Below the pieces are notes generated by a model. The model saw only the letters and a list, made by a program, of their open reading frames with translations. It was not told the DNA's origin and did not search any database. Shown here piece after piece: positions 6,040 to 52,069 of a stretch of 52,069 bases of DNA. Location: IMG/VR virus record IMGVR_UViG_3300045973_001100, positions 1 through 52,069 of that record; one strand, written 5' to 3'. The position numbers were made by a program, and so were the translations under genes. This DNA comes from a virus. Positions within the stretch are counted from its first letter, which is position 1; the number at the start of each line of letters is the position of its first letter.

Positions 6040-6056
6040 TTAATACTGAATTTTGG

Positions 6057-6087: not shown

Positions 6088-6104
6088 CTTGATCCCAATG
6101 TTAA

Positions 6105-7028
6105 TTAGGAGCGAGTGATAGCGATACGGCAAACACCAGAGGGGTTGAAGATCAAGAATCCGAGGATCTCGAACACAGCGAACCCAATCTGACGAAGGTC
6201 AGGGCGGTCAGCCGAAAGCACGGTCAGAGGAACGCGCTCAGGGATGACACCGAGGAACTCGGCATCGGCAAGAACATAAACCGTTCCGAAAGCTACCTTA
6301 CGACTTTGGAGGATTGTGGCCCCCCAAAGATAGCCCATGATACCGGTCTTCAGCAAGTGGCGCTGAGTCTCACGGTCGATGTTGCTATCCTTCCACTTCA
6401 GGATGTCCGTATAATCGCGAGGATTAATGAACACATAGGCGACGGACAGATCGTGACGTTGAACTTCACCAAACGTGTCGGCGAAGGCGTCTGAACTGAC
6501 ACCACCATTTGAAGACAAGGTCACTGTAACAGAGAAGTCCTTGTTGTAGATAGGATCTGTGTACTGCTTGCCGTTGGCAACGGTTGCGATTGCGTCAAGA
6601 AGACCGAAAACGTAACCATCTTCAGTGGCACCAACTTCAGCCTTAGCAAGGTTAAGAGCACGAGAAACGATATCGAATCTCTTTTCCTTAATTTGGGTAA
6701 TTGGGATCATGGGCTGTGCGGCGATTTCGAACGTGGGAACGGTCACACGAAGTGGGTTCACCAAGCGAACGATATCCTGGCCCTGTTCACCGAGCACGAA
6801 TGCTTCGATAAATGAACGGCCAGTTTCATCGAATTCCTTGTCGTAGATGGGCAGAGCGCCATCAGGAAGGGTTTCGACCATGAGCGCCTTACGAGCGATG
6901 CTCATGTAATCGCGACGACGACGGAGTGATGGGCCTAGAGCAGCGGCCAGCTTCTGACGACCAGCTGCAGTCTTCAGAATCTGTCCAAGCTGTGCGGTCT
7001 GGGCCTGGGTGCGGGATAGAATAGTCAT
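6105..7028 (-). CDS. Probable major capsid protein, 307 aa
   Basis: This protein probably forms the capsid shell with an HK97-like fold. Support is mostly contextual: it follows a prohead-protease-like gene, an acidic scaffold-like gene and a decoration-like gene, has an AAGGAG ribosome binding site inside the end of the previous gene, and ends at a strong terminator. The N-terminus is helical and basic (residues 1-45, ending in SLRRRRDYMSIARKALM). A long beta/alpha body follows, with IYDKEF-type and FVINPRDYTDILKWKD-type segments common in capsid proteins, and a hydrophobic C-terminus (FEILGFLIFNPSGVCRIAI). The length is short but within the range for this fold. I cannot assign the exact family. 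Confidence 0.72.
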   Translation of the reverse strand: MTILSRTQAQTAQLGQILKTAAGRQKLAAALGPSLRRRRDYMSIARKALMVETLPDGALPIYDKEFDETGRSFIEAFVLGEQGQDIVRLVNPLRVTVPTFEIAAQPMIPITQIKEKRFDIVSRALNLAKAEVGATEDGYVFGLLDAIATVANGKQYTDPIYNKDFSVTVTLSSNGGVSSDAFADTFGEVQRHDLSVAYVFINPRDYTDILKWKDSNIDRETQRHLLKTGIMGYLWGATILQSRKVAFGTVYVLADAEFLGVIPERVPLTVLSADRPDLRQIGFAVFEILGFLIFNPSGVCRIAITRS

Positions 7029-7039
7029 GTCTTTTCTCC

Positions 7040-7833
7040 TTATACCAGCTCAGCCACACCAAGCCAAGGCTCAGAAGTGGTAGGAACGTGGGTGCAAATA
7101 CCCACAGGGAGGATACCGGTGGTGCCAGCACTACCAGGGGTGATCGTCCACTTGCCCTTGTCGGAGCTAGAAGCAGCGTAGAGGTAGCTTCCAACGACGA
7201 AGGTGTCATTGGCTTTGCAAGCACTAGAAGGAACCTTGAACTTGGCAAAGGCACGAACTACGGGGAGGCGACCAGAACCCGAAGGGGTGATGCTAGATGA
7301 AAACTGCCCAGCACCGAGCAGTAGAACCCCATAGGGGATCTGAAGAGCACCAGCGGTGGCAGCACCGTCGGCGGGAACGATAATTAGACCATTGGTGGTA
7401 GCGGATGCAGGCTTAATAGCCATAATCGCACCAGTCAAGTAGCCAGCGGCAGTCAGGGCGGCATTGTCAGTTCCAGGATCGCTCGTTAGTACAACGAGGG
7501 CGGGATCTGGAATTGTGGTTCCGTCATTCTGTCCGTAATATTCACACTTACAAAACCGTCTGACCCAATGTCAGTCGTTTTCGAGTTTCTCTACCACTTC
7601 GGTTTTCACCGCCACCCCAATGGTGTTCGTGGTCTGGACCATGCCTTCATCATATTAAGAGATTCTTAACGTAGATGGACGATTATGGCCTCTACACGTT
7701 CAAACCCTAGGACCATCGAGCTCGCTTCGCTCGGCGTTGACATCAGCTTTACCTGGAAGTTTTCACCGAATTTACGTCTTACGCACATCTTGTTTCCAAG
7801 ATGGCGACCTGGTATATTAAGTTCGAGAAACAT
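7040..7833 (-). CDS. Decoration/cement-like capsid protein, interrupted by a group I intron
   Basis: Exon 1 is 7833-7820 (M-F-L-E-plus two bases) with a strong AAGGAG ribosome binding site 10 nt before ATG 7833. Exon 2 is 7556-7040 and has no usable ATG at its 5' end, although the frame is clearly coding from 7555 (FCKCEYYGQNDGTTIPDPA). Joining them across the predicted 263-nt intron gives a 176-residue protein starting MFLELFCKCEYYGQ. The C-terminal part (FVVGSYLYAASSSDKGKW, then PVGICTH and WLGVAELV) has the look of DUF2190-like cement proteins, which stabilise capsids. It sits directly before the capsid gene. Exon borders could shift by one base without changing the protein. Confidence 0.65.
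7557..7819 (-). ncRNA. Group I intron, Azoarcus/IC3-like, 263 nt, no internal ORF
   Basis: On the minus strand the order of elements follows the Azoarcus tRNA-Ile ribozyme as I remember it. P2 is a perfect CATCTTG-GAAA-CAAGATG hairpin (7792-7809). Next are AAATTCGGTG and CAACGCCGAGC, which pair as P4 (TCGGTG with CGCCGA). Then come GAACGTGTAGAGG (J6/7) and P7 (GGCCAT with ATGGTCC, a compensated change from GACUA/UAGUC), a P8 arm (TTAAGA with TCTTAA), the conserved GAAGGCATGGTCCAG, and several P9 hairpins, including CGGT-GAAA-ACCG. A 3-bp P1 (exon ACT with GGT) and a terminal G at 7557 fit the proposed ends. Splicing restores the decoration gene frame. Confidence 0.85.
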
Positions 7834-8012: not shown

Positions 8013-8666
8013 ATGGCACATAGATGGCGACAAATACACCACTCTCTGTTAAGAAGCGATCTTCTCAAGGGAGGAGTTTATATTGTTTTAAACACAAAAA
8101 CAGGAACCATGTATGTGGGCTCTGCTAAAGAGTTTAAGAACAGATGGAATAAACACACAGGAGGCTTGTTAACCAAATCACATTCGAATCCGATTCTTCA
8201 ACGAGCCTGGAATAAGTACAAACATGATGTATTTCGCTGGCTTGTAGTGGAATTTGTCGAAGAGGTTAAGAACTTAATCAGTAGGGAACAAGCATGGTTA
8301 GACTGGATGACTGAGTTAGGAGTGGAGCTGTATAACATCAAAAAAGTGGCCAATTCTCGGTTAGGATTGAAATGTTCCGATGAGACTAAGAAACGAATGT
8401 CCGATGCAGCAAAGAAGCGGGGAGATACTTTCGTAAGAGATGATGAGTGGCGAAAGAAAGTGTCTGAAGCAAACAAAACAAATGCTTCAATTCGTTGTAA
8501 CAAAGACATGAGAAACAAAATGAGCAAACTGAAGAAGGGGAACAAATATGGTCTTGGTCTAATGTGGACTCATGACCCCCAAACAAATCAAAATCACAGA
8601 GTCCTTCCCACTGATCCCCGTCTTCTCTCAGGAGAATTAGTTTTGGGTCGTAAGAAAAACGAATGA
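8013..8666 (+). CDS. GIY-YIG homing endonuclease, 217 aa
   Basis: The nuclease domain covers about residues 18-105. GVY (21-23) and YVG (34-36) are the signature strands, R44 in FKNRW is the catalytic Arg, and E92 in REQAW is the metal-binding Glu. Residues of about 118-180 carry NUMOD3-type DNA-binding repeats (CSDETKKRMSDAAKKRG and variants), and a short C-terminal WTHDP..RV module follows. This is the free-standing Seg-like layout. It is transcribed opposite to the head genes, just upstream of the intron-containing decoration gene, so it may drive homing of that region. The start ATG 8013 has only a weak AAGG upstream. Confidence 0.88.
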   Translation: MAHRWRQIHHSLLRSDLLKGGVYIVLNTKTGTMYVGSAKEFKNRWNKHTGGLLTKSHSNPILQRAWNKYKHDVFRWLVVEFVEEVKNLISREQAWLDWMTELGVELYNIKKVANSRLGLKCSDETKKRMSDAAKKRGDTFVRDDEWRKKVSEANKTNASIRCNKDMRNKMSKLKKGNKYGLGLMWTHDPQTNQNHRVLPTDPRLLSGELVLGRKKNE

Positions 8667-12632: not shown

Positions 12633-13313
12633 TCAACGAGGTTCACCCTCGAGTCTGATAGAACGGCCAGTCTTATCCGTTTTATTGAGACCTGCATCAA
12701 TAAATTCACCATAGACGGAACCATTAGCATCGAAAATATCAGACACCATAACGGTGGCATCCTCGCTAACAGCAGCCTGTTCGACTTGATAGGCGGTGTT
12801 GTATGATTCCATCCAGCAACCCTCAAATACGGTTACGACAGCATACAGACCAGGATTGCCCAAGTTGTTCAGCCCACCCTCTGAGGGCACGTCAGCCTGA
12901 ATGGCCTGACCGGTGTCCTTGGCTTCGGATGCAAACTCGGAGAAAACAATCTCTGTCTTGATATCGAAGGGCCACTTGTGATGCTTGAGGGAGCGAACAA
13001 GACCACTTACACCAGCCTTGTAACCAAACATCTGCATCAGATTAGCCAAATAGAGAGCGGTGCGGCTGATACTAAGGGACATTGGCTGGGTCACACCGGG
13101 GACGAGTTCAGCAACCTGATCGCCATAGCCCAGTCCACGAATAGTTTCGATGTTGCGGCTCTCAGACATGCTGAAGCTGCTGGTGACACCCATCTTGACA
13201 AATTTACCGACATCGACAACGTGGCTGTAGATTTTGAACCGGCTTGAAATGACTGTCTTAGTCTGAGCGGTAGTGCCTTGTTTGTAAAGATATGAATCTG
13301 CTACTGCTGCCAT
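12633..13313 (-). CDS. Tail tube protein, 226 aa
   Basis: The size and residue pattern fit myovirus tail tube subunits (T4 gp19-like): SRFKIYSHVVDVGKFVKMG at the N-terminus, a middle helix RTALYLANLMQMFGY, then WPFDIKTEIVF, YAVVTVFEGCWMESYN and a final AVSEDATVMVSDIF strand pair. Such subunits stack as hexamers to form the inner tube of the contractile tail. GGGAG precedes ATG 13313. The strong terminator after it suggests high expression. Its position two genes after the sheath matches the T4 order 18-19. Confidence 0.75.
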   Translation of the reverse strand: MAAVADSYLYKQGTTAQTKTVISSRFKIYSHVVDVGKFVKMGVTSSFSMSESRNIETIRGLGYGDQVAELVPGVTQPMSLSISRTALYLANLMQMFGYKAGVSGLVRSLKHHKWPFDIKTEIVFSEFASEAKDTGQAIQADVPSEGGLNNLGNPGLYAVVTVFEGCWMESYNTAYQVEQAAVSEDATVMVSDIFDANGSVYGEFIDAGLNKTDKTGRSIRLEGEPR

Positions 13314-18700: not shown

Positions 18701-19637
18701 CGGAGGAAAGAGTAGGAATGCCAACAGCGAGTAGGGCGGCCAATTCGGTGAGATTTCTGAGCTCAACGATAGAAACCGAGGCGGAGGCAGCCACTTCAGT
18801 TGCAACCGTGTCCCCACCAAAGGTGAGGGTGTCTGCAGTGGCAATGGTAACGGTAAACGTCGAATTGTTGGAGGCGGTTGAGGAGAAGGTGACCTTATCA
18901 CCAACGGCAACACCATCGTTTAACCAAGAGCCAGTAGTGCGAAGAACCGTCTTGGCTACAGAGGCGAAGGTCAAACTTCCTGTGGCAGTGGAGGCGTGAG
19001 CTGGCTTTCGGAGTTCGATAGACAGCGTGTCGGTTCCAACTCCGCTTACAGCGAGGGCATCGGTAGCAGAAGCGGTTGATGTAACCCCCAAGGACACAAG
19101 ATTCCCACTCGCTCCAGGGACGGACAGTGAGAGGGCCAAATTGGTCAAATAGGTCCAGGTGGCAAAGACTGGAACCTGATCGGAAAGATCTTCACTACTA
19201 ATATAGGTGTCTTTACGCTTGAAGAAATAGGTGACCTCGAGGGTGGTTCCAGGGACGTAGATGTCGTGGAGTTGAATAACACCTGTGGTCCCGTTCAGGC
19301 TGGTCACTGTGGCGGGGGCACCATCAGCAAGCACAGTGATATCGACGGGAGTGGAGGTTGTAGTTCCAGTTCCATCACCCTTGACCACAGGGAAGTAGCC
19401 CAGTTGGAATTGGCGAGTGAATCCGGTGATCTGGTCGGAGATGTTCTCTTTGACAACCAGGTCATCAGCAACCGCACTGCTGCCACGATGCATCTCCTGA
19501 TTCTTGAGGGAGAAGGTTTCTTGCCCTTCACCGATGAAGATGGGGATACGCAAATCTCCAAAAAGGATGATGCCAGGATCCGCTACAGTCTCACTGGTGT
19601 AGACGCCTGGTTTTGTGTACTGATCGAAAAGTGCCAT
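15795..19637 (-). CDS. Tail sheath protein, unusually long, 1280 aa
   Basis: The N-terminus (MALFDQYTKPGVYTSETVADPG) and the C-terminal ~300 residues (AVGFFGYDFYATPNTMRNFARG, ERMIGISVPGAILEI, LIVDYVRKIVRRNLDQFIGR, FKNLQVTRDDYDP) fit contractile phage sheath proteins. The sheath contracts to drive the tube through the host envelope. The length is about twice T4 gp18 (about 660). The extra sequence is Ser/Thr/Gly-rich and includes at least two similar beta modules (VLADGAPATVTSLNGTTGVI with ...VTYFFKRKDTY; VKVNGLTVGVKSVDGISGFF with ...ISYYTNNYQDTY), probably exposed on the tail surface. GGGGAG precedes ATG 19637. Confidence 0.88.
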   Translation of the reverse strand: MALFDQYTKPGVYTSETVADPGIILFGDLRIPIFIGEGQETFSLKNQEMHRGSSAVADDLVVKENISDQITGFTRQFQLGYFPVVKGDGTGTTTSTPVDITVLADGAPATVTSLNGTTGVIQLHDIYVPGTTLEVTYFFKRKDTYISSEDLSDQVPVFATWTYLTNLALSLSVPGASGNLVSLGVTSTASATDALAVSGVGTDTLSIELRKPAHASTATGSLTFASVAKTVLRTTGSWLNDGVAVGDKVTFSSTASNNSTFTVTIATADTLTFGGDTVATEVAASASVSIVELRNLTELAALLAVGIPTLSSGNIVLSSITAGHENDPGSTQAPSLFRNGAGPNSNVTFKTEFAPIVDGSNGGVVTTSVSKVAVKVNGLTVGVKSVDGISGFFTLNNPVLAGQTLTISYYTNNYQDTYDILPASNIDQINLVGFGPDRDDFINGVDFVLETPSGKNARIQWGASSSTDSGVWTAGYVPFDASVITTTLVDERMYLQPVQGTVDGKNAVFTLLDVPTDGSGLARETNDPALISVYLGVDPITALNAGPVRVIQLTGATKTFKLYNPPSGGSSVFASYYRNTLNDHSWTLTVVNPGITGQGTYNIQNELNQIAPVVLPDVAVVTEANYAITGTVWPYSFSDLTSVAGDSPDETVTLTFQDDNLQFVVTPAVQATLIGGGNTNLRFRATTPGSGPNSVVSVQFIDGGGTGAADLSAVTYSSDTVTVNILKVDNITVRTLQEIINLFSLTGHIPTRPTTGVIICEPINGSVNLTTNSTTGASVLFTSGAPSVTTPYSVRYKVTSSRTSGDMIVDGLGRTGGAVTPGTSNVGGNAVGSDGYLDQTYADAVTGVRFTIINPADALSFGYTSLPSPSYHFRPGDMLTFSINSSTSRVASSIPTVDIFGLRTKVVSTYGMRTGDTAVINTFNKAGAEPHVGDFYYVTYTTHKTDADLALRLFTNPADAYALYGDPNPDNKLSLAARLFSLNGGQVFGAIQVRKDVGLETASDQAFEDAIASLASPLPGSDRKCDIIQPLTTSPVVLQYLNHHLISQASPRNSGEAVGFFGYDFYATPNTMRNFARGVKSERMIGISVPGAILEIDVAGKTAEFAVGGEFLAAAMAGMSLDPAIDVATTLTRKSMVGFSRLIRRYDDPTMDLMAADGLTCLVENNGAFVVRHWVTTDNSSPLKREPTSRLIVDYVRKIVRRNLDQFIGRKLIQSAINSVSIVTVSTLKSLVEQEIIEGFKNLQVTRDDYDPTIVHVKWAMKPIFSLLWISAEITVTTRL

Positions 19638-19722
19638 AGGTAACTCCCCTTTTTAACAATTCTTTTTTGACCGAATCCGATATGAACTCATCTACATGAG
19701 AATATCAAAGTTCTTTTGTGCT

Positions 19723-20109
19723 TTAACTTTCAACTTTCCCATATCCTGTTGTTTTTAGAGATTCGTGAATTTCGGACCTCTTCTTTTTGTCTTCTGGTGC
19801 TAGAGGGGCGAAGTCATTTCGTCCCACCATAGAAAGACCTAGAGAGCCAGTTTGTTGTCTAACTTTGTCACGGGACTTTTGTCTTTTTTCAATGTCGGAC
19901 CATCGACGTTCGGAGTCGTTTCCAATGAGCACATCAATAGATTGCTCTTGAAAGTTGGCGGTCACCAAACTCACTCTTGAAATCTCCACATATGATGCAT
20001 CAGCCCCACAACGATCACATTGCAGAAGGGGTTCGGGTGTCTTAGAAGTTGGTAAAAGTCGTTCCATAACAAACTCACAAGACTTACATTTGTACTCTCT
20101 GATGGCCAT
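19723..20109 (-). CDS. FmdB-like zinc-ribbon protein, 128 aa
   Basis: Residues 1-40 form a zinc ribbon of the FmdB type: YKCKSCEFVMERLL (C8, C11), then C31-x2-C34 in CDRCGADASY. The rest is charged and helical (RRWSDIEKRQKSRDKVRQQ), with a Lys/Arg-rich centre that could bind nucleic acid or another virion protein. AAAGGAG precedes ATG 20109. It lies between the sheath gene and the 518-residue structural gene. FmdB-type ribbons are common in phages, with no clear function known. Confidence 0.7.
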   Translation of the reverse strand: MAIREYKCKSCEFVMERLLPTSKTPEPLLQCDRCGADASYVEISRVSLVTANFQEQSIDVLIGNDSERRWSDIEKRQKSRDKVRQQTGSLGLSMVGRNDFAPLAPEDKKKRSEIHESLKTTGYGKVES

Positions 20110-34105: not shown

Positions 34106-34686
34106 CACATCTATATGGCACCCCAGCCAAACAGTATCGCGAACAATATGGACTAACTCTATTTGTTGAAACAGGATGCCATGAGGGGGAAGGATTAATC
34201 CTAGCTAAAGATTATGGATTCAAAGAAGAGAATCTATTTTCATGTGACATTCGCCAAGAAGCTGTTACTAACGCATATCAGCTATTCCCCAATGGTGGTC
34301 TTTTTATGGCAGCAACCAGTGTAGAATTTTTAAAGGTTGTTCTACCTAAACTGACAGATCCAACGCTTTTCTGGTTGGATGCTCATTTCCCCTCTTTTTA
34401 TGATGTAAAAGAAACAAAAGAAACTCGTTGGCCATTGTTTGAAGAGTTGCGACTCATTAGAGAGTTAAAACCCAATGTGGAGAGAGATGTGATTATTTGT
34501 GACGACACACGAATGTTGGTTAGTCCAAATAACCCCAACTATACAGGAGATGTTCCTGAGAATCTTGTAAAATATGTAAATGTCCAATGGGAAGAATTTG
34601 AACAGTCTTTCCATTTGACCCACACGGCACAAAGCATAAAAACAGACACCGGAATATTGGTGTTTCTCCCCAAGGATAAAATCTGA
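34102..34686 (+). CDS. Class I SAM methyltransferase-like protein, 194 aa
   Basis: ATG 34102 overlaps the previous stop (ATGA). The Rossmann-like motif I is FVETGCHEGEG (21-31). It is followed by LFSCDI at the end of strand 2 (acidic D49), and then LFWLDAHFPSF (about 89-99) and RDVIICDDTRM. These motifs are common in SAM methyltransferases of polysaccharide clusters. A sugar or protein methyl acceptor is likely; the substrate is unknown. The stop overlaps the start of the 925-residue gene (TGATG). Confidence 0.72.
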   Translation: MTHLYGTPAKQYREQYGLTLFVETGCHEGEGLILAKDYGFKEENLFSCDIRQEAVTNAYQLFPNGGLFMAATSVEFLKVVLPKLTDPTLFWLDAHFPSFYDVKETKETRWPLFEELRLIRELKPNVERDVIICDDTRMLVSPNNPNYTGDVPENLVKYVNVQWEEFEQSFHLTHTAQSIKTDTGILVFLPKDKI

Positions 34687-37463
34687 TGACCCAATGTCCC
34701 CTGTGTGCCACTCAAACTTCCCAGAAGTATGGAGACACCCCCTACTGGGCCTGTCCCAATTGTGCCCTTTGGTTCAGATCCCCCCTTCCTCCTCCAGTGA
34801 TAGTGGATAAGCTATCCACTCAGATGGATGAAAATGAAAAGGAAATAAATCTGGCCTTGGCCAAATCCATTCTGAGTCGGAGTGGGGTGGGTCGAGTTCT
34901 GGACATAGGATCTAATTATCCCTTTCTGGCCCATTGCTTTGAACAACTGGGTTGTGAGGCCAGTGCGATGGATTGTCTTCCAGGATTGCACAAGCTCGGG
35001 GAGGAGATGGGCGTCGACGCTTATGAAGAAGATTTTGAGCAATTTGTAGTAGACGAACAAAAATTCAAAATCATCACCATGGTGAATTCCTTCAACTACA
35101 TGAGAGATCCACTCGCTGTGCTACACAAGCTGAGGGAGTTGGTAGAAGATGATGGAATCGTATACCTTCGTCTCCCTGATCATGGCATAGATGGATTCGA
35201 ACAACACATTTCTTCCACTTCCACAATGGTACATCCAAATTTCTGGTCACAACCTAGTCTGTTGGAATTGTTAGTTCAGGCAAAGAATTTGTTTGTTATC
35301 AGTGGGTCTTGGCCCTTACAGGGTGGGGGGCAAAGAGATGTCATGCTCAAACCCATCACTGCCAAGCCCAAAGTCAGTTGTGGAATGATTGTCAAAAATG
35401 AGGAACGGGATCTCCCTAAGTGCCTCGAATCTATTAAAGATGTCATTGACAACCTGGTTATTATAGACACCGGCTCTACTGACAAGACTCAAGACGTAGC
35501 TGTCGCATTTTGTGTGCAGAATGAAATCCCTCTTCTCTATAAGATGTACACGGGATCATCCAAACAAGACAGCTCGGGTGATTGGAAATTGTGGGACTTT
35601 GGGACAGCTCGTAATCAATTTGTGCAAGAAATTGAACACAGCTCCATGAGAAATACCGACTATCTCTTATGGATGGATGCGGATGACAACCTCGTCACCT
35701 CCGCCAATGCCCGGAGAGCATTCTATTTATCTAATGTGGATGTAATTGGTATGATGGTCAGTGGAGGAGATGGAACCCAATGGGTACATCACAGAGCCTG
35801 GAAGACAGGACAGGGAATTGAATTCAAAGGAAGAATCCACGAATATCCAGATTTTGGAAATGGTATGGATAAGACCGTGATGGTTATGGGGGATATTATC
35901 ATTCATCATGACTCCGCACCCGGTTTTGGAGAATCTTCCAATGAACGAAATCTTCGTATTCTCGAATTGGACATGAAAGAAGAGCCCAACACAAGAACTG
36001 CCTTCTACCTAGCCAACACTCACAAGGATGCAGCACGGTGGCTCGATGCAGTCAAATACTACCAAATCAGAATTGACATGGGTGTGGGGTATAGAGATGA
36101 ATGGTTGTTTGCCTGGCTGTATAAGGGACGATGTGAAAGAGCAGCCAAACTGTACGAACTGGCCGAACGAACACTTCTCGGTGGACTATCCCATGCCCCC
36201 TCGTGGTCTGAGTTTTGGATGGAACTGGCCTATCTCAAATACGATCAGAAGGAATGGAATCAGGTCATTGGCTATAGCATGGAGGCGTTATCCAGAAACC
36301 CAGAGCACACTCAACTATGGAGAGAGCTCAACAAATACACCGATCAACCTCGTCGCATGCTCTCCTTCGCCCACGAATTCCTAGGGGACAAACCAACCGC
36401 TCTCTATTGGGCAACCGAGGCACTGAAATACATAGGAGTGGACGACACCGAATGGAACAATCGCATTCTTAATTTGAAGCAGGGGGAATTGGCTTCTCGT
36501 TTTCTGAAAAAGAACGTGAAGCCCAAGATTGCTCTCCATCGACCTGGAGCCATTGGAGACATCATCATGACTCTAAACCTCATCCCCATGTTGAAAAAGA
36601 AGTATCCCAAACACGACATCCACTATTATTGCAATGTGGGTATTGGAGAACAACTGTCCAGCCTGTTTACAGCGGTCGAAATTGAATGGTTTGATTGCTC
36701 TCATCTTGAAAGCAAAATTGGAATGTATGAGAAGGTAATTAATCTCATCGGCTACCCCCTTCACGAGGGATACCCCAATGTGCCAATGAAGAAACATCTA
36801 CTCGAGTATTTCGCCGATGAGATGGGACTGGGCACCAGGGGATTACCTCAACTCCATCTAGACTCTCTATCCCTAACTAATCTTCCCAATCGACCCTACA
36901 TCACCGTGCATCCATTGGCAGGGTGGAGTCTCTATAAAAATTGGGCCATGGGACGATGGGAAAAGTTAATTGAAGCCTTCCCAAATGAGTTGTTCATACA
37001 AATAGGGAGTGGGGCTGACTACAAACTTCAAGGAGCAGATCACAGCTACATGGGAACTGAGCTGTCAAACTCAATTGATCTGATTGCCAACGCTACCCTG
37101 CATCTTGGAATTGACTCCTTCTCCAACCATCTCACCCACTATAAGTGGAATGGACGACAGACCCCTGCCATCATCCTGTGGGGATCGACTCAATGGCAAG
37201 CAGCTGGCTATCCAGAAAATGTCAACATCAGTCTCGGACTAGAATGTCAACCATGCTTCCGTGAGGATCCAAAAATTTCTGCTATGCCTCGTGGTGTCTG
37301 TATTAATCCACCGGGGCAGACCGACTACAACCACCCTCAACATGCTTGTATGGCTGGCATCTCTGTTGATCAAGTAATTGACGAAGTAAAGAAGATATTC
37401 GATCTAACCACTGTCACAGGTTCAACCGGTGGAACAGGTCTCAGCAAGGACCCATCGGAGTAG
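34686..37463 (+). CDS. Multidomain glycosyltransferase: methyltransferase-GT2-repeat-GT9 fusion, 925 aa
   Basis: The N-terminus has a zinc knuckle (C4, C7, C23, C26) followed by a class I methyltransferase (VLDIGSNYPF, residues 71-80), as in sugar C-methyltransferases. Residues of about 226-420 are a GT2-like domain (SCGMIVKNEERDLPKCLESI, then IDTGSTDKT and DYLLWMDADD with the metal-binding acidic residues). Residues of about 430-600 are TPR-like helices (YYQIRIDMGVGYRD, then YLKYDQKEWNQV). Residues of about 613-900 are GT9-like (KIALHRPGAIGDIIMTLNLI, then VHPLAGWSLYKNWAM and LHLGIDSFSNH). The last 18 residues contain TVTGSTGGTG, matching the collagen-like fibre repeat. It ends the operon and overlaps the convergent RlpA-like gene by 23 nt. 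Confidence 0.85.
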   Translation: MTQCPLCATQTSQKYGDTPYWACPNCALWFRSPLPPPVIVDKLSTQMDENEKEINLALAKSILSRSGVGRVLDIGSNYPFLAHCFEQLGCEASAMDCLPGLHKLGEEMGVDAYEEDFEQFVVDEQKFKIITMVNSFNYMRDPLAVLHKLRELVEDDGIVYLRLPDHGIDGFEQHISSTSTMVHPNFWSQPSLLELLVQAKNLFVISGSWPLQGGGQRDVMLKPITAKPKVSCGMIVKNEERDLPKCLESIKDVIDNLVIIDTGSTDKTQDVAVAFCVQNEIPLLYKMYTGSSKQDSSGDWKLWDFGTARNQFVQEIEHSSMRNTDYLLWMDADDNLVTSANARRAFYLSNVDVIGMMVSGGDGTQWVHHRAWKTGQGIEFKGRIHEYPDFGNGMDKTVMVMGDIIIHHDSAPGFGESSNERNLRILELDMKEEPNTRTAFYLANTHKDAARWLDAVKYYQIRIDMGVGYRDEWLFAWLYKGRCERAAKLYELAERTLLGGLSHAPSWSEFWMELAYLKYDQKEWNQVIGYSMEALSRNPEHTQLWRELNKYTDQPRRMLSFAHEFLGDKPTALYWATEALKYIGVDDTEWNNRILNLKQGELASRFLKKNVKPKIALHRPGAIGDIIMTLNLIPMLKKKYPKHDIHYYCNVGIGEQLSSLFTAVEIEWFDCSHLESKIGMYEKVINLIGYPLHEGYPNVPMKKHLLEYFADEMGLGTRGLPQLHLDSLSLTNLPNRPYITVHPLAGWSLYKNWAMGRWEKLIEAFPNELFIQIGSGADYKLQGADHSYMGTELSNSIDLIANATLHLGIDSFSNHLTHYKWNGRQTPAIILWGSTQWQAAGYPENVNISLGLECQPCFREDPKISAMPRGVCINPPGQTDYNHPQHACMAGISVDQVIDEVKKIFDLTTVTGSTGGTGLSKDPSE

Positions 37464-37872
37464 ATTTGGGAACTCCTTGCACCTTGACTCTGGCCATGCC
37501 GTTCTCTGTGTATCCCAGATACTTAGCAGCTCGTTCAGACAGATCAAAATCTCGTTTTAATCGAGGATGAGGCCCTCTGTCTGTTATCATCATAACAACA
37601 GACTTACCCCCATAAGTCATTTTCACCTTTGAACCAAGGGGGAGAGTCCAATGGGCACAGGTAAACTTATCCTTATCAAAGAACCAAAATTCCTCAGGTA
37701 TATCCTTGCGGCCTTTAGAGGCGGTTGGTTTGCCCTGAAAATCATCTCCGTACCAACTGATGAGAGAGGGTTGAGCAGTAAGCATGTCCTTGACCTCAGG
37801 ACGTACAAATGCAGGTGGTGGAGTTGACGGGGCAGATCCTTGGAGGAGTTTTGCTCTAAATTTAAATTTCAT
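37441..37872 (-). CDS. RlpA-like double-psi beta-barrel protein, 143 aa
   Basis: Residues of about 37-135 fit the RlpA-like double-psi barrel: ISWYGDDFQGKPTAS (39-51), CAHWTLPLGSKVKMTYGG (72-89) with H74, ITDRGPHPR with the conserved Asp D98, then DFDLSERAAKYLG. RlpA proteins cut or bind peptidoglycan glycan strands. The N-terminus MKFKFRAKLLQ matches the 138-residue late protein at 4539-4955 and no signal peptide is seen, so it is more likely a virion part that acts at entry than a secreted enzyme. Confidence 0.78.
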   Translation of the reverse strand: MKFKFRAKLLQGSAPSTPPPAFVRPEVKDMLTAQPSLISWYGDDFQGKPTASKGRKDIPEEFWFFDKDKFTCAHWTLPLGSKVKMTYGGKSVVMMITDRGPHPRLKRDFDLSERAAKYLGYTENGMARVKVQGVPKSTPMGPC

Positions 37873-39184: not shown

Positions 39185-39646
39185 TTAAAAGCCGATCTCT
39201 GCCATAAGTTCTGGAATTGAGAATGGAATAGGGCCACATGATGAAAAATCACAAAGGGAGGATTCGAATATTTCAGTTATTTGTGGCTTCCTGCTGTAGT
39301 ACAGTGTCCAAACTGCCTTGATCCACAGTTCCACCGCTACACACTTTGGCTTACTTTGAAGAACTCCCACTGCTAAGAGTCCAATGGCGGACCCGCTTAT
39401 TTGTGCATACTCATAATCGTGAGCCGCTTGCCATAATTTTTCTATGTTGGCATCTATGGCTCTGAGTCGCTCTAATTCTGGACCGGGGCCAAGAGTGAAC
39501 ACTACTCCATCCCACGTGCCACCAATGCTGGTTTCCCCAGTTTCTGTTGTTATTTCAACACAAATTCTGGCATCATCAAAGAACGGAAGGAAGGACCCAT
39601 TCCCAATAGAAACCACTTGGCCGTCTATTATTTCAGCAAATCGCAT
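39185..39646 (-). CDS. Fibre assembly/tip-like protein, 153 aa
   Basis: The N-terminus (MRFAEIIDGQVVSIGNGSF) is typical of tail-fibre-associated proteins. The central helix NIEKLWQAAHDYEYAQISGSAIG and LLAVGVLQSKP recall fibre-assembly helper proteins. The start ATG 39646 overlaps the stop of the gene above it (TAATG). Function from position and pattern only. Confidence 0.6.
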   Translation of the reverse strand: MRFAEIIDGQVVSIGNGSFLPFFDDARICVEITTETGETSIGGTWDGVVFTLGPGPELERLRAIDANIEKLWQAAHDYEYAQISGSAIGLLAVGVLQSKPKCVAVELWIKAVWTLYYSRKPQITEIFESSLCDFSSCGPIPFSIPELMAEIGF

Positions 39647-40224
39647 TATTGCCTCGCACTTGGAAAAATTTCATATTCGTCCACACAGAGGAAGGATTGT
39701 TGGATTCCACCGTAGATAGTTCCACCACCCCAAACGGTAACTGTGTTAGTTCCTCCATTATTGCCAATTCGTACTGCAAGAGTTGTTGGAGTGGTGTTAG
39801 TGACAACCATGTCATACTCTAAGATCAATGGGAATGCTGTGTCAGCTCCACCCACCATATATGTAAAATAGTGGGCTCTTGCATAAACTTCGCTGTCTAC
39901 AAAAAGGGCAGCACCGTACTGATTTCCACCTCCTATTTTTGTGTCTAACTGTACTCGAACTCTTAAAAGATTTCCTGCCTTTAAAGGCGTATGTACAAGT
40001 GACAATACCTGTGCCCCTTGAGAATTTTGAGGAGGGGTGGAGGCGGTGGGTATGGAGGCGGCAGAAGAAAAATCTCCGTTCAAGACCACTTTGTTGGTTT
40101 GCACAAAAGCCACAGTCGTTGCACCAGTCAGGGTCACACTCCCGCTGGTCAGTGCCGATGCTGGGATGAGACTTCCTCCATGTCTTGGAAAAAAATTAAA
40201 CATGGAAGAGGGGAAGGCGGGCAT
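39646..40224 (-). CDS. Fibre protein, paralogue of the next gene, 192 aa
   Basis: This protein and the gene at 40224-40796 are tandem paralogues: both begin MPxFPSSMFNFFPxHGGS, share AFVQTNKVVLNGD / TFVQTNKVVLNGD, LSLVHTPL / LSLLHTPL, and end SFLCVDEYExFPSARQ. The sequence is beta-rich and Ser/Thr/Asn-rich, typical of a fibre head. The genes are coupled (TAATG). It probably forms part of the adsorption apparatus. Confidence 0.68.
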   Translation of the reverse strand: MPAFPSSMFNFFPRHGGSLIPASALTSGSVTLTGATTVAFVQTNKVVLNGDFSSAASIPTASTPPQNSQGAQVLSLVHTPLKAGNLLRVRVQLDTKIGGGNQYGAALFVDSEVYARAHYFTYMVGGADTAFPLILEYDMVVTNTTPTTLAVRIGNNGGTNTVTVWGGGTIYGGIQQSFLCVDEYEIFPSARQ

Positions 40225-41206: not shown

Positions 41207-44200
41207 TTAAAAACCTCCTAAGAATTGCCATCCTAAATAGGATGCCATATTTGAGTTCACATAACTAGATGTGCCACCGCTGCTGAAAACTGTCACTCTT
41301 AGCGAACCGGTTGCTGGGGCCACAAGAAAGACTAGGGTCACTTGGGTTGTACTGGTACTTTGTATTTCGATACCAGAGGTCACTTGGCGCTTGCTACCAC
41401 CCACTTCCCAAACAGTCACGTTGCAGTCCGTGACGCCTAAATTGTGTGTCACAGGGATAGAAGTTGAAACACCGTCACCGATGGTTGTTGAGTAGGAGGG
41501 AGACCCCTGGGCAAAGTTACCTTGAGAGATTTTACGGACACGCCACATGGTTGGAGTCGTTGAATTATAGTAAGACCATGGGGTTCCACCATCATCTGCC
41601 TTAGCATAAAACAGTATATCAATATCTGTGGAGTTTACTTTTGCGATGCTGGGACCGGCTCCGTAGTAAGCGGTCCCATTGTAACCTGCCTGTTGTCCAG
41701 TTGAAGATAGTTCATACCAAGGGCCACCATTATAGCTAAACTCTAAAACAAGAATGTCAGAGGTTGCGATTGCTTGGGTGAATCGAACACGCTTAGTTAC
41801 AGAGGCGGATCCGGCTGGGGCGAATGACTGAATCAGCACACCACTAGCGCCATAACCGAATGAAGTTGTGTCATTAGAGGTTGTAGTAGAACTATTATAA
41901 GCATATTCAGTAAAGTTTGTGAGTAAATTAATGTTGGCTGTGAATTGGGAAATGGGAACCGTGAATCTCACAGTCAGAAGGTCCGAGCTGGCCCAACTAA
42001 ACGGAGATGCTTGACTGAGCGGTGTTATTGCATTGGTATTGCAAAAAACATAGTTACCCAAACTGTTATTATACGGAGTGGGTTCTAGTTGATACGTCGT
42101 TGTTGCACTCCCGTCATACGCGGACGCTTTACCAAGAACGGTACCATTAATCGTACTGTTGAAGAGAATGTGTGATGTGTCAATCGTATATCCCAAGGGA
42201 AGGCCAAACAACCACGTTCCAGTACCATACGTCGTAGAAGAGCCCATGAGGATATCGATGGATACCTCCATCGTATCACCGACCCTACGCCACTGACCAT
42301 TAAGTGTCCCATTATTGAGAACCGGGTCTGTACTGACTCCCTTCCATGTGGGTGTGTATGCGGTCCATGGTCCAACCGCTGCCGCTACGGTGATGGCATC
42401 CGATGCGGGGCCAGTTACTCCGTTGGCGATGGTCCTGGTCCCGCCTAGTGTTGCAGTGGCCGATGGCCAGTAACGGAAGAATTCAAAAGAGGTAGCAAAT
42501 GTGCCCGTACCTACAAAGTTGGTGAAGACACCGAAATAGGTTGGAGTGTACCCCAAGGAGGACGAGGACTCGATCCAGGTCTTGCCATCTTGTGACCATC
42601 CCCAGTAGTAGGTAGTGGATGATCTACGAATGCGTACATACTTGGCCTTAGAGTTATACCCATTTGCTATGAGGGCACCACCAGTAGTGAAGTTTGTGTT
42701 TGCGTAGGCACCGGCGAATCCACCCTGGGTGCTGTAAACCCCGATTTCGAGAACGGTTTGAGTTCCAGCACCTGCGGTGGTGCCGTTGGCTAAGATCAAA
42801 CCACCCGCATACGTTGGAGAAGAAGACTGAATGGCCTGATCCACCTTGGTAATGATGGTGAAATCTCCAGTAGGAATTGCCTGAAGAGCACAGATATCTG
42901 GAACGGTGTTGGTTGCCTTAATGAACAGACAGCCAGGGGTCGTTGTATTGACATCTGGAGTAGCGGAGGCGGAGGCCCAATTCACTGTCGTCCAAAGACC
43001 ACTAATTGCTCCTGCTACTTCAAACTCATCATCATACGCAGAGGGAGAAGTAGGTGGTTTGTCAGGATCCCAATAGGTGAACTGGTCCCCAGCGCCGCCG
43101 ACACCTGTTGGTCCGGTTATTCCTGTGGATCCTGTGGATCCGGCGTTGCCTGAGTTGCCAGTATTACCTGTGTTTCCAGGAGCTAGGACACCAGTTGTGC
43201 CCGTTGGCCCTGTAGCTCCTAGATTACCCGTTGAGCCTGTGTTTCCTGCACCACCTATGCCTCCTGTACTACCACTATTTCCTGTAAGACCAATCGAGCC
43301 CGTAGAACCTGTTGATCCACTATTACCTGTATTTCCAGTCACTGTTGAGGTTGGGCCAGTGCCACCTGAAACCCCTGTCTGTCCCACAGAACCAGTTGAA
43401 CCAGAATTTCCTGTGAGACCAGTAGCCCCCTGGCTTCCTGCACCACCACCACCCCCGGTTGAACCTGTAGCACCAACCGCTCCTCCTGCTCCAGTTGTTC
43501 CACTGTTACCAGTGTTTCCTGTCATTCCTGTCGGTCCGGTATTTCCCGTCACTGTGCTGGCAGGACCGGTGGAACCGGTATTGCCTGTCAAACCAACAGA
43601 ACCTGTGGCTCCACTGTTACCTGTGAGACCAGTAGCCCCGGTGGGACCGGTTGGACCGGTATTTCCCGTCACTGTCGAAGCGGGACCAGTTGAACCCGAG
43701 TTACCAGTGTTTCCTACAGCTCCTGTAGAACCACTATTACCGGTAAGACCTATGGAGCCTGTGGGACCAGAATTACCAGTTGCCCCCGTTACGGTGCTTG
43801 TTGGTCCTGCAGGACCAGTAGAGCCAGTGTTACCTGTTAGGCCAGTTGGTCCTGTCGAACCACTATTCCCAGTAGCTCCTATGCTGCCCGTTGCTCCACT
43901 ATTTCCCGTGTTACCTGTGACCGTACTGGTTGGGCCAGTAGCTCCACTGTTTCCCGTCATTCCAATCAAACCAGTGGTCCCACTGTTACCTGTTGCTCCT
44001 ACTGAGCCCGTTCCACCAGAATTTCCGCTGTTTCCCGTCACTGTTGAGGTTGGGCCTGTGGCCCCACTGTTACCAGTTAATCCTATGGCTCCAGTTGAAC
44101 CTGAGTTACCAGTGTTTCCTGTCTGTCCAGTAGGTCCTGTGTTTCCAGTATTGCCTGTAACAGTGGAAGCAGGACCTGTAGGACCTGTTGGTCCCGAGTT

Positions 44201-47200
44201 ACCAGTTTGTCCAATGCTGCCTGTCGCACCAGAATTACCAATGTTACCTTGATTTCCTGTCGCACCAGAATTACCTGTTAATCCTATTGCTCCTGTTGAA
44301 CCACTATTGCCAGTCAGTCCTATATTGCCAGTTCCTCCAGTTACACCTGTATTACCAGTTATGGTAGAAGCTGGGCCTGTTGCCCCTGAATTACCAGTCA
44401 TTCCAATTGATCCAGTTGAACCACTATTTCCTGTATTGCCAATCGATCCTGTTGAACCCGTCGGACCCGTGTTTCCTGTCACAGTACTGGCAGGTCCCGT
44501 GGCACCAGAATTGCCTGTGTTACCAATAGAACCTGTTGAACCCGAGTTGCCCGTAGCTCCCACAACACCAGTGGCACCTGAGTTACCAGTGGCACCGGTG
44601 ACGGTGCTTGTTGGACCTGTCCCACCACTGTTTCCAGTCAGTCCTATTGAACCCGTTGCTCCACTGCTCCCAGTGAGTCCAACAGCACCCGTCCCACCAC
44701 TGTTGCCAGTAGCACCTGTCACTGTTGAAGTGGGACCAGAAGCCCCGGTTGGTCCACTATTCCCAGTGAGCCCAATATTTCCAGTTGCCCCTGAGTTTCC
44801 AGTGAGCCCAATATTTCCAGTTGCCCCTGAGTTTCCAGTGTTTCCAGTTACAGTAGAAGTTGGTCCCGTTGCTCCACTGTTACCTTGATTACCAGTTGAA
44901 CCAGTCTGACCTGTGCCACCCACTGACCCAGTAGAACCACTATTGCCAGTCAGACCGATGGCACCCGTAGCTCCAGTCCCACCAATTGAACCGGTCGCGC
45001 CGGAATTGCCTTGGTTTCCGCCTGAACCAGTCGAACCCGTATTACCCGTCAGACCTATACTACCGGTTGAACCACTGTTGCCTTGATTTCCACCACTTCC
45101 AGTCGCTCCGGTCAAGCCGGTACTACCTTGAGACCCGGTGGAACCCGTCAAACCAGTACTTCCTACAACGATGCTTGCTGGACCTGTCGCTCCAGTCGCT
45201 CCTGTATTGCCTGTTAAACCAATCGAACCGGTTGAACCAGAATTTCCTGTAAGACCCATAGCACCAGTTGGCCCTGTCAATCCAGTATTACCAGTGACAG
45301 TACTCGAAGGTCCTGTGGCTCCGGAGTTTCCAGTCGAGCCTGTCGCTCCAGTAGAGCCTGTAACGGCTGTGAGACCAACCGAACCGGTAGCTCCACTATT
45401 ACCTTGAGACCCAGTTGGGCCTGTCCCTCCGGTTCCTCCAATAGACCCTGTCGAACCAGAATTACCGGTCAATCCGATCAAACCAGTCGCTCCGCTATTA
45501 CCTTGGCTACCAGTCGCTCCTGTCGTTCCGATTCCGCCAACTCCTCCAGTGGCTCCACTATAACCAATAGCACCCGTAATTCCAGTAGAACCCGTGTTAC
45601 CTGTAAGACCAACCGAACCGGTTGGACCAGAATTTCCGCTGTTTCCCGTCACTGTTGAGGTTGGGCCTGTGGCCCCACTGTTACCTTGATTACCGGTAGA
45701 ACCCGTTGAGCCTGTGTTTCCTGTGAGTCCGGTGTTTCCCGTCGCCCCTGAATTGCCTGTTGCTCCCGTAACCGTACTCGTGGGACCAGAGGCACCTGTG
45801 GGGCCTGTATTGCCTGTTAGACCAGTGGAACCAATTCCTCCAGTTGAACCAGAATTTCCTGTATTGCCAATCGATCCTGTTGCTCCGGAATTTCCTATTA
45901 GTCCCGTTGCTCCAGTGGCTCCGGAATTTCCTATTAATCCTGTTGGGCCAGTTGGGCCTGTATTTCCTGTTACAATAGAAGCTGGTCCAGTCGGTCCTGA
46001 ATTTCCAGTGTTGCCAGTAGCACCTATGGCACCGGTCTGACCAATTCCACCAACACCACCGGTTGATCCAGTATTGCCTGTCAATCCTGTTAGGCCGGTT
46101 CCTCCGGAATTTCCAGTTAGACCCATCACCCCGGTGGGGCCTGTTAGACCTGTGTTTCCTGTGACAGTAGACGAAGGGCCAGTGGAACCACTATTGCCAG
46201 TGGCACCTATGGAACCTGTTGCACCACTATTTCCCGTCAATCCTGTCTGACCAGTTCCCCCAGAGTTGCCCGTCGCACCGGTGACGGTGCTCGTCGGACC
46301 CGAAGCTCCCGTGGGGCCAGTGAGACCAACGGAACCACTGTTTCCGGTCATTCCTACCGAACCGGTCGCTCCACTGTTACCTTGATTTCCCGTGGAACCT
46401 GTTGGACCAGTTCCCCCAATTCCGCCTGTTGAACCAGAGTTTCCTGTCAATCCTGTCGATCCTGTAGATCCCGTTACGGCAGTGGCACCAACCGAACCGG
46501 TTGCTCCACTGTTACCTTGATTACCAACCGATCCAGTTGAGCCAGAATTTCCAGTCAATCCCGTGAGACCGGTTCCTCCACTGTTACCAGTGGCACCGGT
46601 GACGGTGCTTGTTGGACCTGTCCCACCACTGTTGCCAGTATTGCCAGTTGGGCCTGTGGCCCCACTGTTGCCAGTGAGACCAACCGAACCAGTTCCACCC
46701 GAGTTTCCTGTATTTCCCGTAACTGTACTGGTTGGTCCCGTTGCTCCGGAATTACCGGTCAAACCAATCGACCCTGTTCCTCCACTGTTACCAGTCAATC
46801 CGATGGAACCAGTCGCACCTGTTGCTCCAGAGTTTCCAGTTGCTCCCACGGCTCCAGTTGCTCCTGAATTGCCAAAAGAGCCAACCGAACCGGTAGAACC
46901 AGAATTACCTGTTAGACCAACATTTCCCGTTGAACCAGAATTACCGGTGAGACCTGTTGCCCCTGTGGGGCCTGTCTGTCCTGTAGAGCCGGTTGCTGTT
47001 GAAGCAGGACCGGTGTTACCGGTATTACCAGTTCCACCAACTCCTCCAGTTGAACCACTGTTGCCTGTTAATCCAATAGAACCAGTTGATCCCGTGTTAC
47101 CCGTTCCACCCGTCATGGTAGAAGCAGGGCCAGTGTTGCCTGTGTTACCAGTATTTCCGATGGCACCAGTTGAACCACTATTTCCTGTGAGACCCGTCGA

Positions 47201-49000
47201 TCCAGTTCCCCCAGAGTTGCCCGTCGCACCGGTGACGGTGCCAGTTGGGCCTGTGACACCGATTGGTCCCGTGGATCCCGTGGCTCCGGTTGGTCCTGTG
47301 TTGCCCGTTCCGGCATTCCCAGTTGGACCTGCTGAGCCAGTTGGTCCTGTCGAACCACTATTCCCTTGGTTTCCTGCAGCACCAGTGGTTCCTGTGTTAG
47401 CGGTCAAACCGGTTGAACCTGTTGGTCCACTGTTTCCTGTCGCACCGGTGACGGTGCCAGTTGGGCCTGTAGAACCTGTGTTACCTTGATTACCAGTGGA
47501 ACCGGTCGCTCCACTGTTACCAGTGAGACCAACCAAACCGGTTGGACCCGTCGGTCCGGTATTTCCCGTCACTGTGCTGGCAGGACCGGTGGAACCGGTA
47601 TTGCCTGTCAAACCAACAGAACCTGTGGCTCCACTGTTACCAGTCGCACCGGTGTTTCCAGTCAACCCAGTTCCACCTGAATTTCCTGTGAGACCAGTTG
47701 AACCGGTTGAACCTGTGTTAGCTGTCAGTCCCGTGGGACCTGTTGGTCCTGTCAATCCTGTAGCACCGGTTACTGTAGAAGATGGTCCAGTTGCACCAGA
47801 GTTACCTATAAGACCCACAGAGCCAGTCGCTCCGCTATTACCTTGGCTACCTGTTGCCCCACTATTTCCTGTGAGACCCACAGAGCCAGTCGCTCCGCTA
47901 TTACCTACAGCTCCTGCTGATCCTGTTGCTCCACTGTTACCAGTGGTTCCTGTCAGACCAGTCGCACCGGTAGTTCCAGTCAATCCTGTCTGTCCCGTTG
48001 GTCCACTATTACCAGTCTGCCCCGCTATACCGGTTCCACCTGTGTTTCCAACAGCACCGGTTGAACCCGAATTGCCTTGGTTACCCCCACCACCTATTGA
48101 ACCAGTCGAACCCGTTGCTCCTGAATTACCAATGGACCCTACACCACCCGTTGGTCCACTGTTTCCTGTCGCACCGGTCGAGCCAGTAACACCAGAATTT
48201 CCTGTTAGTCCGGTTAGACCAGTTGAGCCAGTGTTTCCTGTCTGACCAATTTGTCCATCAACACCCGTATTACCCTGATTTCCAACAGACCCAATTCCTC
48301 CCGTAGGGCCAGAATTGCCTGTGAGACCAACTGCTCCTGTCGATCCACTGTTACCAGTTAATCCGGTTGAGCCAATGGAACCCTGTGATCCTGTTGCGCC
48401 ACTGTTTCCTGTCTGTCCCACAGAACCAGTTAAGCCATTGTCGCCAGTGACACCTGTTTGACCTGTACTTCCCATTGGTCCAATACCACCCGTCGCACCG
48501 GTGACGGTGCCAGTTGGACCAGGGGCACCCGTTGAACCTGTGTTTCCTGTTGCTCCCACCACTCCTGTTGGTCCAGTCTGTCCAGTCACCCCAGCGCCAG
48601 CACCCGTTGGGCCCATAAGACCCGTTGGTCCAGTGGACCCCATATCACCGGTCGATCCTGTGGAACCAGTGATACCAATTCCTGTCTGTCCTGTACTACC
48701 CGAAGCTCCTGTCAATCCAGTGGAACCAGAGGCCCCCGTTCCACCACCACTAGATGCGAGTACAACCCAGTCTGAATTGGTAATACCACCAACCAATTGC
48801 CACGTGATCTGATCATTTGCTGTGTAACAAGCCAATCCCTCGCGACGACGAGCAGATGGGATGGCATCCCTCTCTGTGTGATCAGCTACTTCGTGGAAAC
48901 CACCCAGACCAAATCGAGAGTCATGTGTTGGATAAATATCTGACACATCGCTTGGAGCGATAAATCCTGTTACCTGAACACCACCCGTATAGCCACTCAT
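41207..49000 (-). CDS. Giant collagen-like tail fibre protein, 2597 aa
   Basis: Residues 1-84 form an N-terminal phage attachment domain ([19 protein letters not shown], then [15 protein letters not shown]). Residues of about 85-1965 are Gly-X-Thr/Ser repeats with few charged residues (GPTG, GNSG, GSTG, GATG units), interrupted about 28 times by GPxSTVTG or GTVTG, which break the Gly-X-Y register. The C-terminal 630 residues are folded: a ConA/DUF1349-like domain ([16 protein letters not shown], then [20 protein letters not shown]), a TWKGVSTDP...[10 protein letters not shown]-type module, and a final [16 protein letters not shown] module. It would form a long trimeric fibre that binds the host. 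It overlaps the upstream gene by 4 nt. Confidence 0.88.
43105..48748 (-). repeat. Collagen-like coding repeat array
   Basis: About 5.6 kb of DNA encode roughly 625 Gly-X-Y-type units, mostly with Thr or Ser in Y. Several 60-100 nt blocks recur nearly unchanged (for example 43540-43620 and 47560-47640), which indicates recent recombination or slippage within the array. Long open frames on the plus strand here are by-products of the repeat. Confidence 0.9.
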
Positions 49001-50610
49001 GAGACCACCACCACCAGAGCTCCACCGATCATGTTGGTACTACGATGAACATTATAGTTAGTGGTAACACCATATGCATTTGTAACACTCACAGTGTAGA
49101 CTCCCTCAAAGGGAACAGCTAGATTAGTTGACTGATCTTTAAAGGATGTGGCCGCGCCTAAGACAGATGGATAGCACAGATACTTATATTGTGATGCAGC
49201 GGCAGAGAATGAGTAAACTCCAGCAAATCCTGAGATAAAAGAGCTGATTCGTAAGAGTTTGATGTCCACTTCGGCAAGAGGGGTGGTGGCATCTTCACCG
49301 TAATAAACTCGCCACAGCCAAGTGATCGAGTAGGTTCGGGAGAAGGCAACACTGTGTGTATTTGTCCCTGTGATTGTGTAAACTTCACTCGTTGCTGAGG
49401 TTTTTGTTACTCCAGCATGTGTAATGGCTGCAGGAGAAGTAGCGGAATGACCAGTCACCAAAGTCTCCGGAGTGGTCGTGTCTACAATTCCAATCGTATT
49501 GGAGGAGATGTTTGTGTTGTTGGTTGTACCCCACACGAATGAGGGATTGGAATTACTCGTGGCCCCCACCTCCAAGGGAGAGGATTGACCAGAAATTGAA
49601 AAAGAGGTAAAGGTGGGACTTTGGTAAGGGTAAAGTAGCGAATCCCACATGGTTTGCATAGATATGTTTGAAAAGGTACTGCCAGCAGGAATGCCACCGA
49701 TTGGGGCGGGAGTGGCCCCAGCGTTGGTGTACAGATCTGAACCACCAGATCCAGTTGATCCTGTTGAACCAACAGATCCAGGAACACCTGTATTGCCTTG
49801 ACTGCCGGTGGATCCGGGAACACCCGTATTGCCTTGACTGCCGGTGGATCCTGTACCTCCTGTGGCCCCAAAGGACCCAGTGCCACCACCACTGTCGGAC
49901 ATGAACCCCCGTTCAATTCGAACAAATCCTGTTTGAGTTGAATCAGCAAAGAGAACAGGTTTACTGATGGGGGGTTCTGTGAGGGTCATACCCCCCGGCA
50001 CTGTGTCAGAGAGGAAATACACACCACCAGAAATTAATCCAGACAACCCCCCAATTCGGCCAGATGTGATAAGAATAAATGTGTCTGTTGTAACCGAACT
50101 AACAACGCCTTGAACTTCTGAATTATCCGCTATGTCCGCTTGTGCTTTGACCCAAATGGATCCATTAAAGCGTAAACAGTCACCCGCCGCAAACCCGTGA
50201 GAGGTTTGGGTCAGTGTCTGACTTGTCGCTTCACCAGAACCTGTTCCTGTTGGGTCACTATAGGCAAGGAGAGCCGCATCCAATATGCCTCTTTGTGGGT
50301 CAAAAATAGAACAAGTTCCATCACTTTCCTGGAAGGAAACAAAAGAGACGGATGAGCCATGAACAACATTCTTTACATTGGCCAAATTCAAATAGGGACC
50401 GGATCCATCAACTCTGAGGTCTAAAAACGAGGGATCAAGACCAATTTCTGAATGAAGAAGAACTTGTTGTGTAGAGTCACTGAGCAAAGTGACGTGACCG
50501 TCTTGATGATGTACGAAGACCATACCTCTGTCTGTCAGAGTGAAGGTTATCTGACGGATGTTTAAGAAAATGGAGTTATTTGATGTGTCGATCAGACTTA
50601 TAAAGGGCAT
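48997..50610 (-). CDS. Fibre protein with short collagen-like linker, 537 aa
   Basis: ATG 50610 ([10 protein letters not shown]) has AGAGG 5 nt upstream, so I prefer it to the ATG at 50634. Residues 1-240 are beta-rich ([19 protein letters not shown], then a GTFSxG-like capsid/fibre module [17 protein letters not shown]). Residues of about 242-292 are Gly-rich collagen-like ([19 protein letters not shown]). The remainder ([19 protein letters not shown], then [11 protein letters not shown] and [12 protein letters not shown]) is found in many phage fibres. It overlaps the giant fibre gene by 4 nt. Confidence 0.75.
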
Positions 50611-50682
50611 ACCATCCTCTACTTTTGAGCCCAAAAGTCTAAAAGGTGCAGCAGCCTAATAAGGGAATCCTGCTTTAAATTT

Positions 50683-52069
50683 TTATTCCCAGTAGCCATC
50701 AAATCCAATGAGATGGGTAATAACACCACTGGTCAGAACGGTGGTCAGGTTCTTTGCTGAAATTTCTACATACTCTCCGGGACTCACCACAATGGGTGTG
50801 TCAAAATACTGGATGATGGGGGAGGTGCCACCGAGGGTTCCTGCGGCGGCGTTGATACCAAACTGCTCAGTGCCAAGGGGCACGACTCGGGGGATCTTAA
50901 CCGTAGCGTTGGTGAAGCTGGCGGACTCAGCCCCCGCGAGGGTTCCGTTGGCTCCATTCATTCCATAGCGGAGCGCATAGACCAAAATAACAGGCGTGGC
51001 CACAGAGAGAACGGTCGTGACGGCACTGTGGATCCACACCCCGGTGATGTACAGGGTTCTTGGGGTGATGTTAATCGTACCGACAGGGTTCAGGTATGAC
51101 TGAATGACACCATCGACGTTGACTGCCAGACCAGAGAGGTAGGTACCACTGAACTGGCCACCCAGACCCACGAAGTTGGTGTTGGTGGTGTTGGATGGAA
51201 GGTTGCCAGCGCCAGCGGCCAAGTTGTTCGTGTACAACGCAGTGGATCCGACGGTTTGACCGTTGGGGGCCTGAGAGCAGTGGAGGCCCATCCCCCCAAG
51301 CTGGTGGTGCCAAGGCTTTGAGGTGTGGATGTCCATCAGTACAGCGGAAATGGAGCTGACGTTAAGCTGCATCTGCGGGGAGCCACTGACGGTGCTCGCA
51401 TTACGCTGCTGGATACAAAGTGGAAGAGAAGAAGTTAAATACGGCGCACCGTTTCCCGAAGGTGCTTGCTTAATCCCAATGAATATGCCATCCAACCAGT
51501 ACGTGATTTGCCGGGTGTCAATTACCATTCGAAGAGCATGTGGCACCCCGGTTGTCAGGGCTCCCATGGATGGTGTGGAGACCTCCACACCATTGAAGTT
51601 CAGGACTCCGATGAGACCGTCAGTGCTGTACCTCCAGTAGGCTCCATCAGCGGGAGCAGTGGTGGTGGTGGCGACAAACTGTCCAATCTCAATGACCTGA
51701 TTGGCCAGAGGATCTGCCGTTAGCTCAATTCTAGCCTCAATACACAGCGGGGCCTGGGGGACGAGGGTGAAGTACCTCCAAGTCTGAAGGGAACATCCAG
51801 CCGCAGCGGTGGCGGTGCTGTTGGCGTTGGCAGTCAGGAGGCCAGCACTGTTTAGTGTCATGGTCATTGTGGTAAATGTGTGCTTCCACAGGCTGGTATT
51901 CTGTACCGTTGCGTTAAAATAGTCGGAGAACAGGTACGTGTCGATGGCGGCCCGCAGACGGTAGTCCACGCTCGTTTCTGGTGGCTTCAAATACGAGCCG
52001 TCTCCATTGTCGTTTTGAGAAAATATTTTAACACTGCCCATTGTAGCGGCAGTATTGGAGAGGGCTACC
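50683..52069 (-). CDS. Lectin-like virion protein, cut by the right edge
   Basis: From ATG 52041 the product is 452 residues, but the frame stays open to the edge with plausible coding (ALSNTAAT before MGSVKIFSQNDNG) and ATG 52041 has no ribosome binding site. The gene therefore probably starts outside the window. The sequence has a ConA/laminin-G-like domain (LFSDYFNATVQNTSLWKHT, then APLCIEARIELTADPL, YWLDGIFIGIKQAP) and a beta-structured C-terminus (YFDTPIVVSPGEYVEISAKN). A tail or baseplate structural role is likely. It ends 72 nt before the next gene. Confidence 0.7.
   Translation of the reverse strand, partial: VALSNTAATMGSVKIFSQNDNGDGSYLKPPETSVDYRLRAAIDTYLFSDYFNATVQNTSLWKHTFTTMTMTLNSAGLLTANANSTATAAAGCSLQTWRYFTLVPQAPLCIEARIELTADPLANQVIEIGQFVATTTTAPADGAYWRYSTDGLIGVLNFNGVEVSTPSMGALTTGVPHALRMVIDTRQITYWLDGIFIGIKQAPSGNGAPYLTSSLPLCIQQRNASTVSGSPQMQLNVSSISAVLMDIHTSKPWHHQLGGMGLHCSQAPNGQTVGSTALYTNNLAAGAGNLPSNTTNTNFVGLGGQFSGTYLSGLAVNVDGVIQSYLNPVGTINITPRTLYITGVWIHSAVTTVLSVATPVILVYALRYGMNGANGTLAGAESASFTNATVKIPRVVPLGTEQFGINAAAGTLGGTSPIIQYFDTPIVVSPGEYVEISAKNLTTVLTSGVITHLIGFDGYWE

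Follow-up and report, generated by a model that had tools for sequence, protein, structure and literature searches.

The 925-aa enzyme encoded in the window, the whole 52,069-nt stretch of viral DNA analysed here, carries at its C-terminus a short tail whose DNA resembles the collagen-like fibre gene of the same window. This tail is probably a recombination scar, a short stretch of collagen-fibre DNA that stayed behind at a mosaic junction. That a recombination event took place, which way it ran and that the tail has no function are inferred from the match at the DNA level, the absence of the tail from homologues, its position at a seam and its predicted disorder. The features concerned are as follows.

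34686..37463, + strand: ORF of the 925-aa enzyme with a methyltransferase/GT2/TPR/GT9 architecture; its C-terminus reads KKIFDLTTVTGSTGGTGLSKDPSE and then the stop.
Residues of the enzyme (Pfam): Methyltransf_23 at 65-198, Glycos_transf_2 (GT2) at 231-334, TPR at 476-517 and Glyco_transf_9 (GT9) at 670-860.
37404..37463, + strand: non-homologous C-terminal extension, residues 907-925, LTTVTGSTGGTGLSKDPSE, plus the stop.
37404..37443, + strand: fibre-like DNA patch LTTVTGSTGGTGL, with 32 of its 40 nt the same as in one fibre repeat.
37441..37463, + strand: 23-nt overlap of the enzyme end with the 3' end of the convergent gene.
37441..37872, - strand: DPBB/RlpA-like 143-aa protein (PF03330), convergent to the enzyme and the first gene of the fibre-side block.
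41207..49000, - strand: collagen-like fibre of 2597 aa (Pfam Collagen, E 1.2e-170).
47689..47728, - strand: best-matching fibre repeat, about 10.2 kb from the patch and on the opposite strand.

The GT2 domain (PF00535, 30 bits) and the GT9 domain (PF01075, 23.7 bits) both score above their curated Pfam cut-offs of 23.3 and 22, respectively, and the TPR is a weak match under the cut-off. Matches to the enzyme in phage records were distant, were confined to the glycosyltransferase part and were all below 40% identity. In the relative L006 (10001-12765), two separate ORFs encode the homologous enzyme, one with the methyltransferase-GT2-TPR part and one with the GT9 part, which suggests that the latter can function on its own. 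The fibre contains about 24-26 interruption motifs of the T-V-T-G type (T[VIAM]TG). Many of them lie about 40 residues (120 nt) apart, a spacing implying that the fibre may have expanded in steps of a higher-order repeat unit. A 545-aa structural-type protein (48997-50634, - strand), encoded immediately upstream of the fibre, contains a short in-frame collagen-like stretch at about 49738-49901. Homologues of this protein are present in L001, L002 and L005, with several matches lying next to each other.

Residue 907 is the first of the patch, and homology with relatives gives out just before it; both the full-length alignment and a ten-sequence C-terminal alignment stop at residue ~906. The original prediction described a fibre-like tail and had the enzyme end in TVTGSTGGTG. 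The likeness to the fibre is present in both DNA and protein, although not literally as TVTG[NA]TGNSGGTG, and the motif lies near the end rather than at it, being followed by LSKDPSE. The last six residues, SKDPSE, and the stop of the enzyme are antisense to the last codons of the DPBB/RlpA-like gene. The TGA stop of that gene falls within the patch, and past the patch the enzyme reading frame closes at a TAG. In an AlphaFold model of the enzyme the tail has a pLDDT of ~30 and is thus predicted to be disordered and flexible. No terminator or hairpin was found at the convergent gene ends, and the folding of this region is no better than that of shuffled sequences; the patch is therefore not explained by a terminator or by notable RNA structure.

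The patch and the coding strand of the fibre repeat align without gaps, with 26 of 29 nt identical in the core, an exact 16-mer and 10 of 14 amino acids in common. The collagen region of the fibre shares no other 16-nt word with the remainder of the window, and every common 15-mer falls inside this one. The match is as good as that of fibre repeats among themselves (69th percentile). The patch scores 24 against its own fibre, versus 15-19 against the fibres of relatives and 16 or less against non-collagen loci. When the tail peptide was recoded with fibre or enzyme codons, 1.3% of trials reached the observed DNA score for the core, and 0.1-0.3% did so for the longer stretch. Since recoding so seldom reaches the score, the likeness lies at the DNA level, beyond that of the protein. 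Judged by these alignments, the patch is collagen-fibre DNA or is derived from such DNA. Elsewhere in viral contigs, the exact tail DNA was not found.

The tail is also confined to this enzyme. In 41 homologous viral loci (among them repeat copies from the first set), there are 30 distinct C-termini, 31-60% identical, and none has a collagen-like (TG-repeat) tail. The closest relative found is ~60% identical in the C-terminal domain. The homologues run 0-24 aa beyond the homology and end in varied, unrelated sequence. Phages that have a fibre and an enzyme without the tail include L001, L004, L006 and L133, among others, and several of their nearby fibres are of the same style. Across the homologues sampled, then, the enzyme family does not conserve the tail. 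The comparison with related phages called for by the original prediction found differing local sequence in place of a conserved tail, an outcome that by its own terms speaks against a functional tail.

The seam coincides with a loss of synteny. The left block, from a position of about 20 kb onwards, is syntenic with L001-L006 up to the last conserved codons of the enzyme; there synteny breaks off, and an unrelated fibre-side module follows. Its genes stand in the same order in L001, L004 and L006, at about 50-77% identity for most and 26-40% for a few. None of the genes between 37441 and 41206, the DPBB/RlpA-like gene included, has a match in the enzyme-bearing relatives. These relatives switch gene content straight after the enzyme, each with different genes. 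The break to the right of the enzyme makes its 3' end the border of a host-recognition module that has been exchanged. A search of viral contigs for a donor context gave no relatives of the DPBB gene or of the gene at 39646-40224, and the gene at 50683-52041 has three there, at 38-50% identity. Another gene of the window, 8013-8666, resembles by eye a GIY-YIG nuclease, a putative assignment. Its homologues in L001 lie at 12787-13188, 5792-6121 and 19327-19761, one of them directly at the 3' end of the enzyme gene, and it is a candidate for what drives exchange at this point.

Other explanations of the tail can be weighed against a scar. The enzyme gene may have extended at random into intergenic DNA that by chance looks like the TG-rich fibre, an option also left by the original prediction. 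Unrelated extensions are found in other homologues, some of them 16-24 aa long, and a long fibre offers many targets. However, none of 4000 random 36-nt segments of the window matched the score of the tail against the fibre (22 for the tail, 17 for the random maximum). When collagen DNA was compared with 1.88 Mb of collagen-masked DNA (the fetched loci and the window), the tail site ranked first with 39.6 bits, the next site having 36.5 bits. With the exact 16-nt word also unique in the window, chance is unlikely. The runner-up site, in L051, was rejected as a short simple repeat rather than a collagen gene. It is improbable, too, that the contig was wrongly joined at fibre-like sequence. The window is a metagenomic virus record, its seam lies where synteny ends, and collagen repeats give rise to assembly tangles. 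However, the longest exact common word of 16 nt is below usual assembly overlaps, GC is even over the seam (0.46 on both sides), and the relatives likewise change genes right after the enzyme.

A functional tail would be a Thr-Gly peptide resembling an acceptor; it might dock the enzyme on the fibre, serve as a pseudo-substrate or be self-glycosylated. Its predicted flexibility would suit such a role, and in relatives collagen-like fibre genes lie within 10 kb of the enzyme genes. In some bacteria, GT2-like enzyme genes adjoin Gly-X-Thr collagen genes, and SgtA of Clostridioides difficile adds GlcNAc to threonines of collagen-repeat peptides of BclA3 (PMC7157674). Against this, the tail is missing from 30 of 30 distinct homologous C-termini, including those of phages with the same kind of fibre; it contains only two Gly-X-Thr triplets, and its final six residues come from the antisense of a different gene. 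We regard this explanation as very unlikely. The substrate mimic or docking tag of the original prediction drew no positive support; as a recent gain, in which capture of a fibre fragment gave the enzyme a C-terminal acceptor-like tag for binding its collagen fibre substrate or for self-glycosylation, it is highly improbable.

The original prediction listed a recombination scar among its options, as a piece that recombination with the fibre gene had left behind. Three findings support it: the patch matches the fibre in its DNA, it lies where synteny breaks, and none of the homologues carries it. The enzyme would be the end of the conserved left-hand block, and the fibre-side block to its right would have been replaced in this lineage. 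The seam would hold 30-40 nt of collagen-fibre DNA, inverted relative to the present fibre and drawn either from this fibre or from a collagen gene of a related phage. Illegitimate recombination or template switching may have produced it, as may an inversion that had one breakpoint in a fibre gene; simple slippage is excluded by the orientation of the patch, opposite to that of the fibre. By luck the piece would be in frame, so that translation would run through the patch and antisense into the DPBB 3' end until the TAG. The patch is read in the fibre's own reading frame, for which the prior by luck, given the strand, is about 1 in 3, so that no selection is needed. Points against a scar are this frame, the identity of 80% overall and the single occurrence of the process: no comparable scar was found at the enzyme ends of L001, L004, L006 and L008, relatives with collagen genes. 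A match of 80% rather than identity does not single out the donor copy or show that the event was recent. A weak fibre likeness in L006 at ~12854 (22 of 31 nt) was rejected, as it falls within a coding gene and multiple testing leaves it marginal.

If so, the scar is a small mark of the swapping of host-recognition modules beside repeat-rich fibre genes. Variable islands with tail-fibre and collagen-like genes are reported in freshwater actinophages (PMC10202952), as are, in pelagimyophages, hypervariable host-recognition clusters that include glycosyltransferases (PMC7029224). Modular side-tail-fibre collagen proteins have been put down to prophage recombination (PMC3368898). The abrupt loss of synteny beside collagen-like fibre genes resembles the mosaic junctions of host-recognition modules in tailed phages. 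Unlike at those junctions, a fibre scrap is here stranded, inverted, on the neighbouring enzyme gene and in its reading frame.

If the tail is a scar, it no longer speaks for a special interaction of enzyme and substrate, and the link between the two then rests only on the recurrent gene neighbourhood, a lead of more interest than the tail. That enzymes of this kind modify the fibre is plausible from the neighbourhood alone, independently of the tail. As described, the arrangement is like that of SgtA/BclA3, with a glycosyltransferase gene beside a gene for a Gly-X-Thr collagen-like protein. Unlike in that system, the phage enzyme, a predicted glycosyltransferase, is a four-part protein encoded on the strand opposite to the fibre. 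In the bacterial contigs L045 (3147-4320), L047 (~9413) and L053 (~7406-7722), a Gly-X-Thr collagen-like gene or stretch adjoins a gene related to the glycosyltransferase part of the enzyme.
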